A stretch of 31,410 nucleotides of DNA from contig JALOPK010000021.1 in NCBI GenBank assembly GCA_025453925.1, positions 1 through 31,410 on the forward strand, read 5' to 3'. The notes under the pieces are model-generated. The model worked only from the letters and a program-made list of their open reading frames with translations, was not told the DNA's origin and did not search any database. The position numbers and the translations under genes are program-made. The first letter of the stretch is position 1; each line of letters starts with the position of its first letter. Shown here in pieces: positions 1 through 8,402 of this stretch. Source of the stretch: Candidatus Eiseniibacteriota bacterium. Lineage in GTDB: Bacteria; JAFGKV01.

Positions 1-563
1 CGCTCATGCAGATCCAGCACCAGTCCGGCCCGAATGGCGAGATTCGGCAGTTTCATCAGCCGGCGCATTCCCGTCAGCCAGAACACCCACAGGATCACCA
101 GTGCATCGATCATGACGATTCCCGTCACCCGTGCGTCACCAACGACGGCGCCGAGCACGGCCGAGAACGCTGCGATGGCGACATTCAGCATGATCAGAAC
201 GAAACAGCCCATTGGATTCGACGCTTCGAATGCGTCTCGATCCCACTTCTTGGAGCGCTTCCTCAAGTCCTCCAGTTCTCGTATTCTCTCGATGGGGACC
301 GCCTTCCAGGCGGGGTCGATGTCGAAGCCCTTGAGCCGTACGCGGCTGTCATACCCCTTGACGATTACCAGCAGCACCGCAGCGATGAGGAACGGCAGGC
401 CTGAGAAGACATTCAGCGTCGCAATCTGAAGGGCACACGCGAGCACGAAGAGCGCGAGCACGATCCGGATTCTCCTCGAGTACGGCAAGCTCTTCGCCAG
501 ATGGAAACGAACGGTGTCGCGCTGAGAGGGAAGGAGCCCGTGGGACGTCTCAGATTGACTCAT
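1..563 (-). CDS. Multi-pass membrane protein, C-terminus beyond window edge
   Basis: The reading frame opens at ATG 563-561 and stays open for 187 codons to the left edge, so the gene is partial. Hydrophobic segments lie at about residues 33-50, 52-70, 118-141 and 146-166, giving at least four membrane passes. A charged, Arg/Lys/Glu-rich loop (about 71-112) sits between the two hairpins. Its start codon overlaps the stop of the upstream radical SAM gene by four bases (ATGA), which implies translational coupling and a shared operon with the radical SAM enzyme and the Cys-repeat membrane protein. No family is recognised. By position it could be a membrane partner, transporter or assembly factor for the repeat-tail protein; that role is inferred from context only. 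Confidence is high that it is a real gene and low for any function. Confidence 0.8.
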   Translation of the reverse strand, partial: MSQSETSHGLLPSQRDTVRFHLAKSLPYSRRIRIVLALFVLACALQIATLNVFSGLPFLIAAVLLVIVKGYDSRVRLKGFDIDPAWKAVPIERIRELEDLRKRSKKWDRDAFEASNPMGCFVLIMLNVAIAAFSAVLGAVVGDARVTGIVMIDALVILWVFWLTGMRRLMKLPNLAIRAGLVLDLHE

Positions 564-1867
564 GGCGCATTCCTCGTGGTGCAGGTCAAACTCGGCTCGA
601 TCTCTGCATAGTCGTTGGCCTGGAAGTAGAGGGGGCAGGCCCCCTGGCAGAGGGCAAAGTCCTCGCATTCATGGCAACCCTGATGGGCTTCACGCTTCGC
701 CCGGATGTGCCGTGCACGGCTGGTGGACCAGACTGCGTGGAATCCCTCCTCCAAGAGGCTGCCCAAGGGTTCCCGCCAGCTGGAGCAGGGCAGCACCTGT
801 CCCGCGGGATCGATTGAGAGTAGACCCTCGCAGGCTGCGCATCCCTTGTTGCCCAAGCCGTGCTGCACGGGGTTGAACAGGCACGCAGGGGTGGGGGAGT
901 ACCACATGAATCGCGCTCCCTCCTCCCGTGCTGCTGAGGTGATGCGCGGCAGCAGTTCCGCGATATCGCGGTAGGCAACCGCCAGATCGGGATCCAGACC
1001 GCGTCCCGTGGGAATCACGAGATTCGCCGAAAACCTCGTCATGCCCAGGGACCGCGCGAAGGATGCCAGCATCGTCACCGTGTCGAGGTTGGGACGGCAG
1101 ATGGTGGTGTGGGGATGGACATGCACACCCGCGTTTTGCAGGGCACGGAGCCCCGCCACCGACGCGGCATGGGCGCCCCGCTGCCCCACCACGTGATCGT
1201 GGATGCCGGGGTCCGGCGACTCGATGCTCACCTGGGCCGAGGCGAGCCCCTGTTTCTTGAGCAGGGTCGCCATGGCGGGATCAATGAGGGTACCGTTGGT
1301 AATGAGGTTCACCCGCATGCCCAGCGTGTGGGCGTAGCGGATCAAGTCGGGAAGGTCGGGCCGCAGGAGCGGTTCACCGCCGGTGAAGGACACGCTGGGC
1401 ACTTCCGCGTCGAACTTGATGATCTCCAGCACCCGCTCCATCGCCGCGGTATCGAGTTCGGCCTGCACGGGCGTCTCCGACACGTGCCGGCACGCGGCGT
1501 AGCAAAACCGGCAGCGGAGGTTGCAGCGCCATGTCAGGGCAACCTCCGAGAGGATGGGAAGCTCGATGTAGCCCAATGCGAACCGGGTTCGGTGCAGCGC
1601 AGGGGAGGAGTAGTCATCGCAGACGCCGCCACCGAGCACCCGGGAGAGGTCGGTGAAGAACGACTCCAACTGCCTCACCACTTCACCGTTCCCGCTGCCT
1701 CGCGCAAGGGCGTCGACGCGGCCCCCTTCAAGCAGGTAGTGCAGCGCCCGGGCACCGCTTCGATTGACCTTGAAGGCTTCATTTGGCATCCGGATCACGA
1801 CATTATCGGTGAGCCGAACGCGGACATAGGGGCGGATCGATTCGATGAACTCCTCAACCCATGCCAT
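560..1867 (-). CDS. Radical SAM/SPASM protein with N-terminal PqqD/RRE-like region, putative maturase
   Basis: 435 residues from ATG 1867. Residues about 15-80 resemble a PqqD-type peptide-recognition element (a strand-rich start, then an N-x-S-G-A-R-A-L-x-Y-L-L-E-G-G stretch). The radical SAM core has the [4Fe-4S] motif CNLRCRFC (Cys 115, 119, 122) and GGEP at 163-166. The C-terminal SPASM part carries Cys 329, 343, 346, 361, 398, 401, 407, 411 and 429, enough for auxiliary Fe-S clusters. Such proteins usually install crosslinks or other changes on ribosomally made peptides. The start is 17 bases after the stop of the Cys-repeat membrane protein, and the end overlaps the next membrane-protein gene. 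A longer frame to 2005 exists, but it runs through the repeat DNA of the upstream gene as a low-complexity Leu/Pro stretch and is unlikely. The probable substrate is the neighbouring Cys-His-Ser-Ala tail (inference). Confidence 0.87.
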   Translation of the reverse strand: MAWVEEFIESIRPYVRVRLTDNVVIRMPNEAFKVNRSGARALHYLLEGGRVDALARGSGNGEVVRQLESFFTDLSRVLGGGVCDDYSSPALHRTRFALGYIELPILSEVALTWRCNLRCRFCYAACRHVSETPVQAELDTAAMERVLEIIKFDAEVPSVSFTGGEPLLRPDLPDLIRYAHTLGMRVNLITNGTLIDPAMATLLKKQGLASAQVSIESPDPGIHDHVVGQRGAHAASVAGLRALQNAGVHVHPHTTICRPNLDTVTMLASFARSLGMTRFSANLVIPTGRGLDPDLAVAYRDIAELLPRITSAAREEGARFMWYSPTPACLFNPVQHGLGNKGCAACEGLLSIDPAGQVLPCSSWREPLGSLLEEGFHAVWSTSRARHIRAKREAHQGCHECEDFALCQGACPLYFQANDYAEIEPSLTCTTRNAP

Positions 1868-1884
1868 TCCAGCCGGGGAATGCC

Positions 1885-3564
1885 TCAATGCCCGCCCCCG
1901 GACACGCAGGCGGAGTGGCAGGCCGAGTGGCACGCTGAGTGGCACGCCGAGTGACAGGCCGAGTGGCAGGCCGAATGACAGGCGTCGTGGCACGCTGCAT
2001 GACATGCCTGGATGCCCCCCACGTCCTGGGCGACCTGGGCGAAGGAAGGTGCATCGGGGCTCGCGGGCAGCGACGCCTCGAACTCGTACTGGTGGTGCTC
2101 CGGATCGAATGAGCGATGATCACCACCGGTCATGTGATACCAGTACCACCAGCTATCCTCAGGGCGGGAGTCATACACACGACGGCCGGTCGTGGTCGAA
2201 GGGGTAGGCTTTCGACCATCCTCCATGGCGGCGCCGATTCTGTCGCCGTAGAATCGCTTCGTTGCGTCGATGTCGCAGTCCCACGCCTTGTTCTGCACCG
2301 TTCGGACCATCCCCTGCAGCAGCTCTTCCAGTTCCGCAGTATTGAACTGCCCGTCATCCTTGGCCGCCTGCAACAGGGCATATTCATGCTCGCTCAGCGT
2401 GCTCATGGGCGCCGGGGCCGGCTGTGTCACCTCCACGATCAGGGGATCACGGCTCACCACGGTGAGGAAGCGACGGGTTGCCAGTTTCGACAGCATGGTG
2501 GAGAGGATCCGCTTGTAGGGCACGCCCAGAAACAACGCCGCTTCCACGGGATCGAGGTTGTCCGCGATCTTGCCCGGTTTCCTGAACGTTGCCAGCTCGA
2601 TCACCGGGGGTTCCCAGTCTTCCCGCACCCAGCGCACGGCATCCAACTCGGCCTGCGCACGGATCATCGACCGATGCTTGCCGGATACCGCGAACGCGCC
2701 GAAACCCAGCAGCAGCAGCATTCCGACGCCCAGGCCGAAGCGCGAGCGGCTGGTAACTGCCCTCGTCATCTTCTCCGGCTCTGGCTCTGGGGCCAGGCCG
2801 ACAGCCTCCTCCTCCTCGCCAGAGATACTGACTCGCCGGTCCAACTGGCCAAAGACGTCGGCGTCGATGTACTGCTGTATCCGGAAGTGGTAGTTGGCCC
2901 TCGGCCGGTTCTTGTGAAGGAGGACTTCGATGCGCTGCTCATCCTGCACCGGCCTGAGACGATAGTCGATCAGGTACTCCTTGTTCATGAACGGCTCGGT
3001 GGCGAATCCGCGGGCGAGCAGCGCTGCCTCTACCGCGCTTCGCCCCGTGTCGCTCCCGGGGAAGGGGATAGGATAACTGACCCTGACCGTGTAGTGATCC
3101 AGTGCCTCGTCCCATTGAGTCGGGGCCCAGTCAAGCACCACGAGCGGGCGGCCGTCATTGGCGGTGGTCGCCGCCAGATACCCCGCTCCCGCCATATCCG
3201 CCGCGAAGCGGAATCGGTACGTGACCTCGCCGGACGAGACCCCTCGGCCATCGGCCAACACGATGTCCCACTGGTCTGATCCGTACGGGGTGATGCTCAG
3301 GCCGTACGTGCGCCCCTGGCTGTCCACGGCGGATGCGTTCTCGACGTCAAACACCGGCTGGAGCAGGCCGAGTCCGCCGAAGTAGAACCCATGGAACTCG
3401 CCCGAGGTCACCCGGTAGCGAACCACATACTCGATGACCGACTGGCCGCTCTGGGAGAGGATGACATCCGTCTCGACGAAACTGAGTGACCCGGTGCCCG
3501 CAACAGCGTACGATGACAGGCACATGAAAGCCGCGAGCCCGGTGATCGATCTATGAGTGGTCAT
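1885..3564 (-). CDS. DUF2207-like membrane protein with C-terminal Cys-His-Ser-Ala repeat tail
   Basis: 559 residues. ATG 3564 is chosen because AGGAG (3572-3576) lies seven bases upstream; an in-frame ATG at 3570 is too close to it. A signal peptide (about 1-22, ending Ala-Val-Ala-Gly) leads into a strand-rich extracytoplasmic region like DUF2207. One clear membrane segment lies at about 276-294, followed by basic residues, which predicts a cytoplasmic C-terminal half (winged-helix-like stretches around 330-420). The last 39 residues are CHAA, CHDA, six CHSA units, then CVSGGGH, giving nine Cys at every fourth residue from 521 to 553. Outside this tail and the signal peptide the only Cys is at 430. 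It is the first gene of a unit with a radical SAM/SPASM enzyme 17 bases downstream. The tail may be a modification substrate or a metal-binding segment. The DUF2207 assignment is by recollection of the fold pattern. Confidence 0.83.
   Translation of the reverse strand: MTTHRSITGLAAFMCLSSYAVAGTGSLSFVETDVILSQSGQSVIEYVVRYRVTSGEFHGFYFGGLGLLQPVFDVENASAVDSQGRTYGLSITPYGSDQWDIVLADGRGVSSGEVTYRFRFAADMAGAGYLAATTANDGRPLVVLDWAPTQWDEALDHYTVRVSYPIPFPGSDTGRSAVEAALLARGFATEPFMNKEYLIDYRLRPVQDEQRIEVLLHKNRPRANYHFRIQQYIDADVFGQLDRRVSISGEEEEAVGLAPEPEPEKMTRAVTSRSRFGLGVGMLLLLGFGAFAVSGKHRSMIRAQAELDAVRWVREDWEPPVIELATFRKPGKIADNLDPVEAALFLGVPYKRILSTMLSKLATRRFLTVVSRDPLIVEVTQPAPAPMSTLSEHEYALLQAAKDDGQFNTAELEELLQGMVRTVQNKAWDCDIDATKRFYGDRIGAAMEDGRKPTPSTTTGRRVYDSRPEDSWWYWYHMTGGDHRSFDPEHHQYEFEASLPASPDAPSFAQVAQDVGGIQACHAACHDACHSACHSACHSACHSACHSACHSACVSGGGH
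1897..2004 (-). repeat. Nine-unit 12-bp tandem repeat coding (C-H-S-A)n
   Basis: On the minus strand, nine consecutive 12-base units start at the Cys codon at 2004. The commonest unit is TGCCACTCGGCC. Most differences are synonymous (TGT/TGC, CAT/CAC, TCG/TCA/TCC, GCC/GCG), while units 1, 2 and 9 change residues (CHAA, CHDA, CVSG). Third-position drift with protein conservation in the six central units argues for selection on the encoded repeat rather than recent slippage alone. Confidence 0.93.
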
Positions 3565-3651: not shown

Positions 3652-5505
3652 TCACTGGTCGAGGCTGAAGCCCCGTTGGGTGAAGACCGCGAGGCATGCA
3701 TCCACGACGTCGGCATCATACAGCACGCCGCGGTTGCGGCTTACCTCCTCGAGCGCGCGATCCAGCCCCAAGGCCGGGCGGTACGGCCGGTGGGATGACA
3801 TGGCCTCCACGACGTCCGCGACTCCCAGGATCCGGGAAGGGAGGAGGATGGCCGCGCCGGAAAGGCCTCTCGGATAGCCCGAGCCGTCGATCCGCTCGTG
3901 GTGCTGCAGCACGATCTCGGCGATGGGCCAGGGGAACTCCACCGTCTTCAGGATATCGTACCCGACCGAAGGGTGGGCCTTTATCATGCTGAACTCGATC
4001 TGGGCGAGCCTCCCCGGCCTGCTGAGGATGCCGGGCGGCACGTAAATCTTGCCGATGTCATGCAGAGTGCCGGCCACCCGGATGCATTCGATGTCGTCGT
4101 CCGACTTGCCCATCTCCCGGGCGATAGCACAGCCGAGGCGCGCCACCCGGTACTGGTGACCTGCAGTGTAAGGATCGGTGGTCTCCGCCGTGGCAGCGAG
4201 AGCGTGGACCGTGCCTTCCAGGGTCCGGCGCAACTTCTCGAAGGTCTGCTGGAGCTGTTCAGTACGTCTCTGCTCAGTGACGTCCTCGATGATGCCGTCG
4301 TAGTAGAGGACGGTTCCCTGCTCGTCCTTCACCGCGACCGCGGATACTGACGCGGTGAAAGGCATCCCGTCCTTGCGCTTCAGCCTGAGTTCCTCGTCCC
4401 TGACCATGCCGTCCGTCAACATCCGGGCATTGAACCGCGCACGTTCCTCCGGGTGTTCATACAATTCCGCTACGTCAAGGTTGAGGAACTCCTCACGGCT
4501 GTCATGGCCGAACATGCGGACGATGGCCGGATTGGCCTCGATGAACCGACCACGCGGCCCCAAGGTGTTTCGGTAGATGCCCACATTCAGGTGTTGTGTC
4601 AGGCTGCGATATCGTTCCTCGCTGGCGCGCAGGGCATCCTCAGCCGCCTGCCGATCCGTGATGTCCAGGAAGGCAGCGACCGATCCCTCATACGCGTCCG
4701 AGTTTGAAGGGAGTGGAGAGGCGATGACGCGCACCCGGCGGAGCTGGCCCGAGGCGTGGCGGAAGCTGATCTCGTATTGGCTCGATATGCCACGGCGTCG
4801 CTTGGCAGTCTCCGTGAGGACAGTCGTGAAGTCCTCCTCACTGAGAATGGTGCTGAGGTTGAAACCAGCAACCCCAGTGGAGTCGCACCCGACTATGGAG
4901 CAAAACGCCTGGTTCGCGTAAACGATGTTCTCATCGGCGTCGGCGATGACCAAGCCCTCCTGCACCGTCTCGACGATTGCGCGGTACTTGCGTTCGTTCG
5001 CCTTGAGGGCTTCGCTCGCCTGCCTCTGCTCGGTGATGTCCAGAAGGCTGCCCTCGAACCAGCGGACTCGGCCGGTCTCATCGCGGATGGTGCGAGCCCT
5101 GTCGCGCACCCATATGGCGCGACCGTCCCTCCGCCGGAGCCGGAGTTCGATGTCCCTGATGTGGCCGTTGCTCTCGCGGTCGGCAAGCCAGCGCCACCGG
5201 TCCTCCGGTGCGACATAGAGATCGGCCGCATTGCACGCGATCAGTGCGTCGCGGTCTGGGTAGCCAAGCATCTCCACCAGCGCGGCGTTGGCGTCGACGA
5301 TGGTGCCGTCAGGGGTGCTGCGATACAGCCCCACCGGGATGCCGTCGAAGAGACTGTGATACCGCTTCTCCGACTCCGCGACGACGTCGCGAGCCTGGTC
5401 CGTCCCGCCGGAACCCTCGGCCTCGCCGAGCCTCCGGCACAGCCGCAGGATCTGGGCAACCAGTTCCCCGCGATCCGCGGAATGGGGATGGGGATCACCG
5501 CTCAT
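3652..5505 (-). CDS. Triple-PAS sensor with HD-GYP c-di-GMP phosphodiesterase domain
   Basis: 617 residues with no membrane segment, so a soluble cytoplasmic sensor. Three PAS/PAC modules lie at about 45-158, 170-284 and 297-412, each ending in a D-I/V-T-E/D-Q/R type junction, joined by short helical linkers. The HD-GYP domain (about 425-615) shows His450, the HD pair at 482-483 (LHDIGK) and HHExxDGSGYP at 535-545, the signature of active c-di-GMP phosphodiesterases. There is no receiver or GGDEF domain. The start follows a GGAGGGAG tract with an 11-12 base spacing. It lies between the rhomboid gene and the repeat-tail operon on the same strand; whether it is co-transcribed is not clear. It likely lowers c-di-GMP in response to a small ligand or redox signal sensed by PAS; the ligand cannot be read from sequence. 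Confidence 0.92.
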   Translation of the reverse strand: MSGDPHPHSADRGELVAQILRLCRRLGEAEGSGGTDQARDVVAESEKRYHSLFDGIPVGLYRSTPDGTIVDANAALVEMLGYPDRDALIACNAADLYVAPEDRWRWLADRESNGHIRDIELRLRRRDGRAIWVRDRARTIRDETGRVRWFEGSLLDITEQRQASEALKANERKYRAIVETVQEGLVIADADENIVYANQAFCSIVGCDSTGVAGFNLSTILSEEDFTTVLTETAKRRRGISSQYEISFRHASGQLRRVRVIASPLPSNSDAYEGSVAAFLDITDRQAAEDALRASEERYRSLTQHLNVGIYRNTLGPRGRFIEANPAIVRMFGHDSREEFLNLDVAELYEHPEERARFNARMLTDGMVRDEELRLKRKDGMPFTASVSAVAVKDEQGTVLYYDGIIEDVTEQRRTEQLQQTFEKLRRTLEGTVHALAATAETTDPYTAGHQYRVARLGCAIAREMGKSDDDIECIRVAGTLHDIGKIYVPPGILSRPGRLAQIEFSMIKAHPSVGYDILKTVEFPWPIAEIVLQHHERIDGSGYPRGLSGAAILLPSRILGVADVVEAMSSHRPYRPALGLDRALEEVSRNRGVLYDADVVDACLAVFTQRGFSLDQ

Positions 5506-5692: not shown

Positions 5693-6541
5693 TCAGTGAT
5701 CGAAGGCTGCCCACCAGGCCGCACCCGCCAGTCCCACGGCCAGACCGCCCGCTAGTATCTGGGCCACCCGACCGGCCGCAACGGGGGCGAGCCGGGCATG
5801 GGCGCCCCCGACTGCCAGGCCCGCGAGAAGGCCGAAGAAGTGGGCCTTAAGGTCACTGCGGGGGTCCGTGCCGAGCAGGCTCAACAGGGCCAAGGCGGCT
5901 CCCAGGGGAATCCAGGCTCCCAGCCGTCGGGTGGGGACACGAAGCCGTTCAACGTATTGGCGCGCCGCGAGGATTCCCACCCCGGCGAACACCGCGGTGG
6001 ATGCGCCGATCGACAGCCGGTATGAGGTGCCAACCATCCCGCTCAATCCATTGCCCAGGGCACCCGCCGCCACCAGCAGCAACGCGCTCATCCCGGGGCC
6101 CGCCGCGGCGGCAACCCCGGAGCCGAAGACCGCCATTGCCGCCGTATTGCCCAGCAGATGCTGGATGTTGGCATGCACGAACAATGCAGTGATGCTGCGG
6201 TAGACCTCACCCTGCGCCAGGCGGTGCCCCGACACCCCGGCCTGCCGCACCACGGCTTCATGGCCGTGCCACACCGCCCACCCGTGGGCGGCGATCAGTG
6301 CAGCCGCGAAGGCGATGCCAGCCCGCGGCCAGCGGCCGCCCGCCGGAGGTGGCGGGGGCTCCGTTTGGGTGTCGATCGGTTCACGGAGGATCTCCCTCGC
6401 CCGCGGACCGTCCTCCTCAGAAACCTCCACCTCCCACGCGCCGAACCGTTCCACGGCCCATGACTGCACGCCCGCCGCGGCAAGGGTGAGCGTGAGATCT
6501 TCGGCCTCGGTCCGGCCTTCGGCTCGAGCGATGGTAGTCAA
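5693..6541 (-). CDS. Rhomboid family intramembrane serine protease
   Basis: 282 residues. An N-terminal soluble part (about 1-60) resembles the small DUF2007-type signal-transducing domain, followed by a Pro-rich linker and a six-to-seven-helix membrane domain. Rhomboid landmarks are present: HANIQHLLGN with His123, His128 and Asn132; the catalytic Ser181 in GAST (the usual GxSG has Thr in place of the last Gly); and the catalytic His234 in AHFFGLLAG. It cleaves membrane-anchored substrates within the bilayer; the substrate is unknown. The frame begins at a TTG codon with no good ribosome binding site, so the true start may be slightly different. It sits 115 bases downstream of the tRNA-binding-domain gene on the same strand. 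Confidence 0.88.
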   Translation of the reverse strand: MTTIARAEGRTEAEDLTLTLAAAGVQSWAVERFGAWEVEVSEEDGPRAREILREPIDTQTEPPPPPAGGRWPRAGIAFAAALIAAHGWAVWHGHEAVVRQAGVSGHRLAQGEVYRSITALFVHANIQHLLGNTAAMAVFGSGVAAAAGPGMSALLLVAAGALGNGLSGMVGTSYRLSIGASTAVFAGVGILAARQYVERLRVPTRRLGAWIPLGAALALLSLLGTDPRSDLKAHFFGLLAGLAVGGAHARLAPVAAGRVAQILAGGLAVGLAGAAWWAAFDH

Positions 6542-6992: not shown

Positions 6993-8093
6993 CTATGATG
7001 CTGTGGGACCCGGTTCGCGTCCTGCGGCCGCGGCGCGGCTCCGTCTGACTTCGTCCATCAGTCTGGCGCGACGGCAAGCAGTATCGTACGCGGCCAAGTG
7101 GTTTCCCTTCTCTATGGCCGCCGTGGCAGGACAACGAAAACAGAGGGGAAGAAGCTCGCATTCCCGGCATTCGGGCGCGCTGCTGCGCCGCGCGTTGCGG
7201 AGCTCCAGGAGTAGCGGTGCGGCGGACCAGATGGCGGCGAAGGTCTCCCGCCGGAGATTGCCCGCCGGCTGAGGGTATTGCATGCACGGGAGGACATCGC
7301 CATTCCAGGAGATGCTGCAGAAGCTGATCCCGGCCCGGCAGAGGTATCCCCCCAGGCGTCCTTCCCGTGCGTCATGTAACTGCACGTTGTCGAACGACAG
7401 CGAACCAGGTCCCAGTGTCGGATCAGCCACCAACTCCCTGAACTGGTCATCACTGAGCGCCAGGAGGAGCGTGTCGGTGTTTCCGTCGTTTCGGCTGCTC
7501 ACCGTCGGATCGAGGGAGTAGGGGACACCGAGCTCGCTCGCCAAATCCACGACAGACCGGTACTCGGGGAAGTTGGCCTGCATGAGAAGGGTCTTGATCC
7601 GCGTCTTGACGCCATGTTCCCTGAGAGTCCTGATGGCGTGAACGGCCCGGGCAAAAGACCCGTTTCTCCCCGTGATGCCGTCATGCGTCGCGGCGCTCGC
7701 TCCCAGAATGCTCACGCTCACCTGCCAGACCGCCAGTTCCCGCAGCCTGCGGGCCGACTCGGGGCCGATGAGCGTCCCGTTGGTGAAGACCTCGATGCTG
7801 AACGCCCTGCGGCGGGCATGCTCGACGAGGTCGAGGAAGTCGCTCCGCATAAACGGTTCGCCGCCGGAAAACGTGAGCCGAAGCGTGCCGGCCTCGGCCA
7901 GCTGGTCGAGGATTCCCTTGGCCTCCTCCGTGTTCAACTCATCCCGGTGCGCCTCTCGATGGCCGACGACATAGCACATCCGGCAATCCAGATTGCACGC
8001 CTGCGTCACCTCAAAAATGACGTCATGGGGGATGGTTCGGGCAACGACCTCGCGGTCGGCCCGGAAAAGCAGCGGTACGGCGCGGTCGGTCAC
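6993..8093 (-). CDS. Radical SAM/SPASM protein, PqqE-like peptide-modifying enzyme
   Basis: 366 residues. The cluster motif CNLDCRMC gives Cys 33, 37 and 40; GGEP is at 77-80; an EVFTNGT strand follows at 101-107. The SPASM region has Cys 252, 259, 270, 309, 312, 318, 321 and 340. It begins 24 bases after a free PqqD-like gene. This pairing is the standard arrangement for radical SAM enzymes that act on ribosomally made peptides or proteins, with PqqD presenting the substrate. No precursor peptide with an obvious leader is visible beside it. It is distinct from the other radical SAM enzyme in the window, which has its recognition region fused and has different SPASM Cys spacing. The product could be a modified neighbour protein or a substrate encoded elsewhere. 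Confidence 0.9.
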   Translation of the reverse strand: MTDRAVPLLFRADREVVARTIPHDVIFEVTQACNLDCRMCYVVGHREAHRDELNTEEAKGILDQLAEAGTLRLTFSGGEPFMRSDFLDLVEHARRRAFSIEVFTNGTLIGPESARRLRELAVWQVSVSILGASAATHDGITGRNGSFARAVHAIRTLREHGVKTRIKTLLMQANFPEYRSVVDLASELGVPYSLDPTVSSRNDGNTDTLLLALSDDQFRELVADPTLGPGSLSFDNVQLHDAREGRLGGYLCRAGISFCSISWNGDVLPCMQYPQPAGNLRRETFAAIWSAAPLLLELRNARRSSAPECRECELLPLCFRCPATAAIEKGNHLAAYDTACRRARLMDEVRRSRAAAAGREPGPTAS

Positions 8094-8117
8094 TCAGGCC
8101 TCGAAGGTAGCCGCGGG

Positions 8118-8402
8118 TCAGGTTGGATCGCTCAGGAGCAGAAGACGGAGCTTGTCCGACGAGAGATTGGTAATGAACTCCACGACATCAGTCTGGGCCT
8201 GTGCTTCATCCACCTCGAACTCCTCGCAGATGAGCTTGGTGATCGCCCCGACGGTGTTCGCTCCATCCGACAGCTCCCAGATGCGCGTACCGACATCATC
8301 GAGGGAGTGAAGCATGCTGTCCTCCGCGGAGATCAGAATTGCCTCGCCTTCAATCACACGCCATGCCACGTCCTTGTTCCTGGTCACCACTTTGTCGAGC
8401 AT
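8118..8402 (-). CDS. PqqD-family peptide chaperone / RiPP recognition element
   Basis: 94 residues, the normal PqqD size. It shows the typical layout of a strand-rich N-terminus (I-L-I-S motif), the H-S-L-D-D-V-G-T-R-I-W-E-L segment around residues 32-45, and a C-terminal helix bundle (V-V-E-F-I-T-N-L). Such proteins bind the leader of a substrate peptide and hand it to the radical SAM enzyme, here the next gene. ATG 8402 follows a GGAGGATA ribosome binding site. It is the first gene of a three-gene operon with a promoter at 8462-8490. Confidence 0.9.
   Translation of the reverse strand: MLDKVVTRNKDVAWRVIEGEAILISAEDSMLHSLDDVGTRIWELSDGANTVGAITKLICEEFEVDEAQAQTDVVEFITNLSSDKLRLLLLSDPT

Follow-up and report, generated by a model that had tools for sequence, protein, structure and literature searches.

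Radical S-adenosylmethionine (SAM) maturases are known mainly for the production of small peptides. The TIGR04117 family of NCBIfam (Syntroph_Cxxx) has a cysteine at every fourth residue of its C-terminus and is assigned as a radical SAM target. TIGR04222 proteins are membrane proteins with a low-complexity, Cys-bearing C-terminus, which is the proposed substrate of a neighbouring enzyme of the type that acts on ribosomally synthesised and post-translationally modified peptides (RiPPs) (PMC12452194). Here we describe a three-gene cassette whose nearest relatives are the TIGR04117 CXXX-repeat targets and the MNIO-linked TIGR04222 proteins, and which joins both themes with a different enzyme and with strict linkage. 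It lies in a 31,410-nucleotide stretch (the window) that begins at base 1 of contig JALOPK010000021.1, in a 3.9 Mb draft genome of a Candidatus Eiseniibacteriota bacterium (GCA_025453925.1). The three genes, all on the minus strand, encode a membrane protein that ends in a tail of CHxA repeats (the tail protein), a radical SAM/SPASM enzyme with a predicted RiPP recognition element (RRE), and a further membrane protein (the third gene). The best explanation of the sequence data as a whole, and one that we consider rather probable, would be modification of the tail in place by the enzyme.

The cassette differs from both families. The 98-position TIGR04117 model spans the repeat region only, whereas the CHxA repeat forms the end of a membrane protein of 559 residues. 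Eleven of 14 tails matched the model weakly, with a best E-value among the 14 members of 5.2e-6; the matches listed individually had E-values of 0.06-0.4 and scores of 11-14 bits (12.1 for the window protein) against a cut-off of 50. TIGR04222 genes are often found beside an MNIO (DUF692) enzyme, whereas the partner here is a radical SAM enzyme, and the TIGR04222 tail is Gly/Ser-rich and periplasmic, whereas here it is a strict CHxA repeat that is predicted to be cytosolic. Linkage to the enzyme is loose in the TIGR04222/MNIO system, with no MNIO in 490 of 1372 TIGR04222 genomes (PMC12452194), but complete in the CHxA cassette.

The ranthipeptide system of PapB and freyrasin likewise combines a radical SAM/SPASM enzyme with repeated Cys motifs of X3 spacing, and PapB links Cys to the Asp/Glu of CX3D/E motifs (PMC9413430, PMC8326336). 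The original prediction, made from the DNA sequence of this locus, drew an analogy to CX3D that is not supported as stated. The Cys-to-Asp chemistry of PapB cannot be carried over to the CHxA tail, in which the residue at +4 is Cys and x, which may be S, D, G or A, can be Gly. The unit statistics given below rule out PapB-like Cys-Asp cross-linking as the general chemistry, and the enzyme scored 74.1 bits against the PapB-type model NF047865 (cut-off 340). For the His-Xaa-Ser system, the HxsC4 model NF038332 gave 71.1 bits against a cut-off of 500, and no other Hxs model was among the best 25 matches listed for the enzyme. Among the matches listed, every named NCBIfam maturase family had a cut-off that the enzyme did not reach, and no NCBIfam or Pfam model was matched at its cut-off by the tail protein or the third gene. 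The proposal that this is a candidate new system is supported. At their cut-offs, the current NCBIfam and Pfam models do not include the cassette. In the literature searched, a limited library, we found no paper pairing DUF2207 or 'CXXX repeat' with radical SAM, no occurrence of the string CHSACHSAC, and no paper describing the cassette.

The CHxA tail is strictly conserved

The window tail protein closes with nine cysteines at four-residue spacing (CHAA-CHDA-(CHSA)6-CVSGGGH), as originally read from the sequence, and holds nine Cys and nine His within 39 residues. Across 33 distinct tails we counted 266 units (192 CHSA, 52 CHDA, 17 CHGA, and 5 CHAA), setting aside two units from a spurious frame. 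The C-H-x-A pattern is kept in 266 of 266 units, each of which is followed by Cys. Tails usually have eight or nine units, and all but one fall within seven to nine. One Elusimicrobiota tail (L005, and G040) has only three CHxA units. Asp occurs mostly in the first four units and Gly near the tail end, and a clostridial tail (L055) has WHSA ahead of its first Cys unit. Every tail closes with CVS, a short Gly-rich stretch, and then H, R or K.

Codon use in the repeats is free: each of the four Ala codons and each of the six Ser codons (TCN and AGY) is represented. As the codons vary freely, selection acts on the protein. A chance or DNA-level tandem repeat was ruled out by these varied codons together with a reversed control pattern, which had zero matches in every genome searched. 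The mean p-distance of the tail is 0.14. The rest of the protein (0.61), the enzyme (0.47) and the third gene (0.63) all have higher values, so that the tail is by this measure the most conserved part of the cassette. Ahead of the tail lie a variable aromatic/His-rich linker and, after this linker, a short conserved segment, in which F508 and G517 are invariant in the homologue alignment and which reads SFxxFRTSxxCYEGAF in Elusimicrobiota and FxSxxDxxxGxF in Clostridia. We propose this segment as a candidate recognition sequence for the enzyme.

The tail protein and the enzyme occur together

Searching public genomes with the enzyme alone returned 14 clear homologues (42-58% identical) from metagenome-assembled genomes labelled Clostridiaceae, CSSED10-310, Elusimicrobia, Kiritimatiellae and Lentisphaerae. 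A fifteenth match, with 23% identity, was counted as a non-orthologue. In all 14 enzyme loci, the gene directly upstream encodes a CHxA-tailed protein and the gene directly downstream a membrane protein of ~340 residues, and the third gene was present in every further locus read. A single array was found in each of three out of three genomes examined from the window's phylum, and in each of ten genomes reached through the loci.

Co-occurrence of array and enzyme was assessed in 538 genomes (247 Elusimicrobiota and 291 of the clostridial carrier's class), and the two coincided in 25 of them, side by side every time. The array, the enzyme (E <= 1e-60) and the tail protein (E <= 1e-10) were present in the identical 14 of 247 Elusimicrobiota genomes and were adjacent in each. 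In the clostridial class, the enzyme was identified in 11 of 291 genomes, each with the tail and the third gene, and the array pattern was restricted to those 11 apart from one lone two-unit match elsewhere. In the class of the Kiritimatiellae carrier, the tail protein was found in 3 of 240 genomes, each time next to the enzyme. This strict co-occurrence is the outcome of the adjacency check suggested originally, which did not refute the original proposal; homologues of the tail protein that usually lack a radical SAM neighbour were not seen in the search. Pairwise distances of the tail-protein body, the enzyme and the third gene correlate (r 0.96-0.97, shared ancestry included), and in the enzyme tree, where branches are long, the window sequence groups with CSSED10-310 and clostridial sequences. 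The sequences are consistent with a cassette that moved or was inherited as a unit.

Domains of the enzyme and its RRE-like N-terminus

The enzyme has certain radical SAM (PF04055, E 4.8e-24) and SPASM (PF13186, E 1.6e-7) domains, as judged from sequence. The cluster motif CX3CX2C, at residues 115-122, is invariant in 15 sequences, and the SPASM motifs CX9GX4C and CX2CX5CX3C are located at 346-361 and 398-411. In the AlphaFold model (pLDDT 73, pTM 0.78), the N-terminus forms strands at 15-18, 23-26 and 30-33, and then helices at 36-46, 51-56 and 61-78, which is the β3-α3 order of an RRE. The closest solved structures are SkfB (Z 24.1) and SuiB (Z 21.8), aligned from residues 13 and 6, respectively, and the next closest are viperin, PqqE, anSME, TigE and CteB. 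SkfB and SuiB carry RREs. The overall fold of the enzyme resembles that of the maturases SkfB, SuiB, TigE and CteB, for SkfB and SuiB including the RRE-bearing N-terminus, but their substrates are small precursor peptides and their identity to the enzyme is 16-22%. Both SkfB and CteB have N-terminal RREs and make thioethers (PMC8326336).

A Pfam search of the enzyme N-terminus matched no PqqD model, and comparison with a PqqD profile of just two sequences was uninformative (hhalign probability 1%). The RRE-type radical SAM/SPASM enzyme of the original prediction is thus recovered in its domains and motifs, and its RRE is supported by the predicted fold, short of proof from sequence. The enzyme folds like the peptide maturases SkfB, SuiB and TigE. 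We consider the tail very likely to be its substrate.

One clostridial genome (G770; L070 6929-9094 (-), and L061) has an unusual arrangement, in which the enzyme match ends at model position 375 and a single frame of 722 residues extends from the enzyme into the third gene. There, the array is intact but the frame of the tail protein is broken. These broken frames represent either decay or an assembly error.

The tail protein body and the third gene

The tail protein is composed, in order, of a signal peptide, a DUF2207-like outer domain, one transmembrane segment, a cytosolic TIGR04222-like region, the linker, and the CHxA tail. The DUF2207 label is not supported as it stands: the match to PF09972 (E 0.0016, 19.1 bits) stays below the gathering score of 24.4. 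Five of the 14 family members match DUF2207 (best E 0.00046), and three of 14 match TIGR04222 weakly over residues ~339-443, the best at 23.3 bits and E 4.1e-5 (L013), below the cut-off of 43. The window tail protein itself has no TIGR04222 match. A transmembrane segment is seen by hydropathy in all 14 aligned homologues. The tail is placed in the cytosol because the protein has one signal peptide and one transmembrane segment, and it is probably both cytosolic and membrane-anchored. The earlier argument for a cytoplasmic tail stands for these two features, but its appeal to basic residues is weak in the window protein, which has four K/R before the transmembrane segment and three after.

The predicted location bears on an alternative in which the tail cysteines serve lipidation or disulfide cross-linking, leaving only His, Ser or Asp to be modified by the enzyme. 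Such an arrangement could account for His being as invariant as Cys across all units. However, stable disulfides would be unexpected in a cytosolic tail and the cassette has no conserved acyltransferase or oxidoreductase, and we regard this alternative as very improbable.

Complete homologues of the third gene are ~340 amino acids long, with four transmembrane helices and a cytosolic α/β domain. The window contains just 187 codons because the gene is truncated by the contig edge at base 1, and the protein model was made from the L003 homologue (pLDDT 86). A Pfam search of 15 third-gene members gave no match above noise, and Foldseek with the model returned nothing at E <= 0.001; on these grounds, identification as a transporter, a protease or a member of a known family was rejected. 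The modelled cytosolic domain aligns to type III secretion chaperones and YbjN-like proteins (VIA-align Z <= 7.6), a likeness too low to exclude a common arrangement and only a hint of a peptide-binding role.

Proposed modification of the tail in place

If the enzyme modifies the tail in place, the signal peptide and the single transmembrane segment would insert the tail protein so that its last ~260 residues, tail included, are cytoplasmic. The RRE-like domain would recognise the conserved pre-tail segment, and the enzyme would progress through the CHxA units, with SAM and its auxiliary Fe-S clusters serving to place an identical cysteine-centred modification in each. As the likeliest product we suggest, tentatively and as somewhat short of probable, a ladder of sulfur-to-carbon (thioether) cross-links. 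Invariance is confined to C, H and A, which would make the adjacent His or Ala a likelier cross-link partner than x; the invariance of these two residues points to cross-link partners or structural requirements. The third protein would probably hold the tail protein or its tail near the enzyme, or be a functional partner in the membrane. The modified tail would stay attached to the membrane protein. A metal- or redox-related role for the Cys/His comb is only a guess, and the fullest version of this proposal, a permanent and repeated radical SAM modification (possibly Cys-His or Cys-Ala) that gives the cytosolic tail the properties of a metal- or redox-sensing comb, is one that we consider rather doubtful.

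Several points weigh against modification in place. Tail modification is itself inferred. The topology comes from hydropathy only, and the RRE comes from a model (pLDDT 67-90 in the N-terminal blocks) and has no sequence match. Correlated gene distances would also be expected from the shared ancestry of neighbours, and co-occurrence would also be expected of a shared pathway in which the enzyme does not modify the tail protein.

Beyond the three genes, no neighbour is conserved across phyla. NifU and NifS are found downstream in many Elusimicrobiota loci, and in clostridial loci the cassette is followed by a CPG-motif P-type ATPase, a small HMA protein, and a protein of ~103 residues. These clade-limited neighbours are no more than a hint of Fe-S clusters or metals. 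With the density of Cys and His in the tail, the metal-related neighbours would suit a tail that is an unmodified comb binding metal or Fe-S clusters, the enzyme acting elsewhere or being a partner in the same metal or redox pathway. However, these neighbours are limited to some clades, and the exact four-residue spacing and the invariant Ala exceed the usual needs of metal binding. Furthermore, enzymes of this class (SkfB/SuiB-like, with an RRE-like N-terminus) are peptide maturases, and the cassette has no other conserved peptide substrate. We consider an unmodified comb unlikely.

The conserved pre-tail motif, the repetitive C-terminal Cys core and the RRE-type maturase also resemble the layout of a RiPP precursor, and the tail protein could be an oversized precursor, from which the modified tail would be cleaved afterwards to give a free peptide. 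Against this, the membrane protein that occupies the 500 residues before the tail has been maintained as a conserved, folded protein, peptidases and exporters are not recurrent neighbours of the cassette across phyla in 33 loci, and a rhomboid protease near the window's cassette is limited to its genus. Release of the tail thus appears quite unlikely, and a dedicated released-RiPP cluster was rejected on the basis of the 33 loci.

If the tail is indeed modified in place, RiPP-type chemistry would extend to resident membrane proteins, not released peptides, and the cassette would be the radical SAM equivalent of the pairing proposed for MNIO and TIGR04222. The regular four-residue repeat suits tests of processivity and of new cross-link chemistry.

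Gene layout and neighbouring genes

The tail gene is separated from the enzyme ATG (1867) by a 17-base gap (1868-1884), and the enzyme stop (562-560) overlaps the third-gene ATG (563-561) as ATGA, so that the gap and the overlap noted originally both agree with the coordinates (Table 1).

Table 1. Coordinates of the cassette and associated features (window positions unless a locus is named).
Feature	Coordinates	Strand	Remarks
Tail protein gene	1885..3564	(-)	559 aa
DUF2207-like N-terminal domain, residues 30-214	2923..3477	(-)	outside by predicted topology; PF09972 sub-threshold
Single transmembrane segment, residues 276-294	2683..2739	(-)	hydropathy
Pre-tail motif, residues 507-518 (SFAQVAQDVGGI region)	2011..2046	(-)	candidate enzyme-recognition sequence
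Repeat tail, residues 521-559, CHAA-CHDA-(CHSA)6-CVSGGGH	1888..2004	(-)	presumed substrate
Radical SAM/SPASM enzyme, RRE-like N-terminus	560..1867	(-)	435 aa; PF04055, PF13186, predicted structure
RRE-like region of enzyme, residues 1-78	1634..1867	(-)	predicted structure, alignment to SuiB/SkfB
Third gene, membrane protein	1..563	(-)	187 codons present in window
P-type ATPase/HMA neighbourhood	L002 9467-11883; L006 9584-12351		also partly visible in L001

Directly upstream of the tail gene (window 3652-5505 (-)), a triple-PAS HD-domain (HD-GYP-like) protein is encoded that is missing at the equivalent place in a genome of the same genus, G001 (L034). The rhomboid-family protease near the cassette (window 5693-6541 (-); PF01694, E 1.5e-19) is also present in G001, and none was found in the other loci read. 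The window contains another radical SAM/SPASM gene (6993-8093 (-)) that follows a stand-alone PqqD gene (8118-8402; PF05402, E 6.1e-16), and this pair (6993-8402) is retained in G001 with 75% identity. Downstream of one cassette (L063 11387-13969) is an 860-residue protein in which a xylose-isomerase-like barrel is fused to an AMP-binding enzyme.

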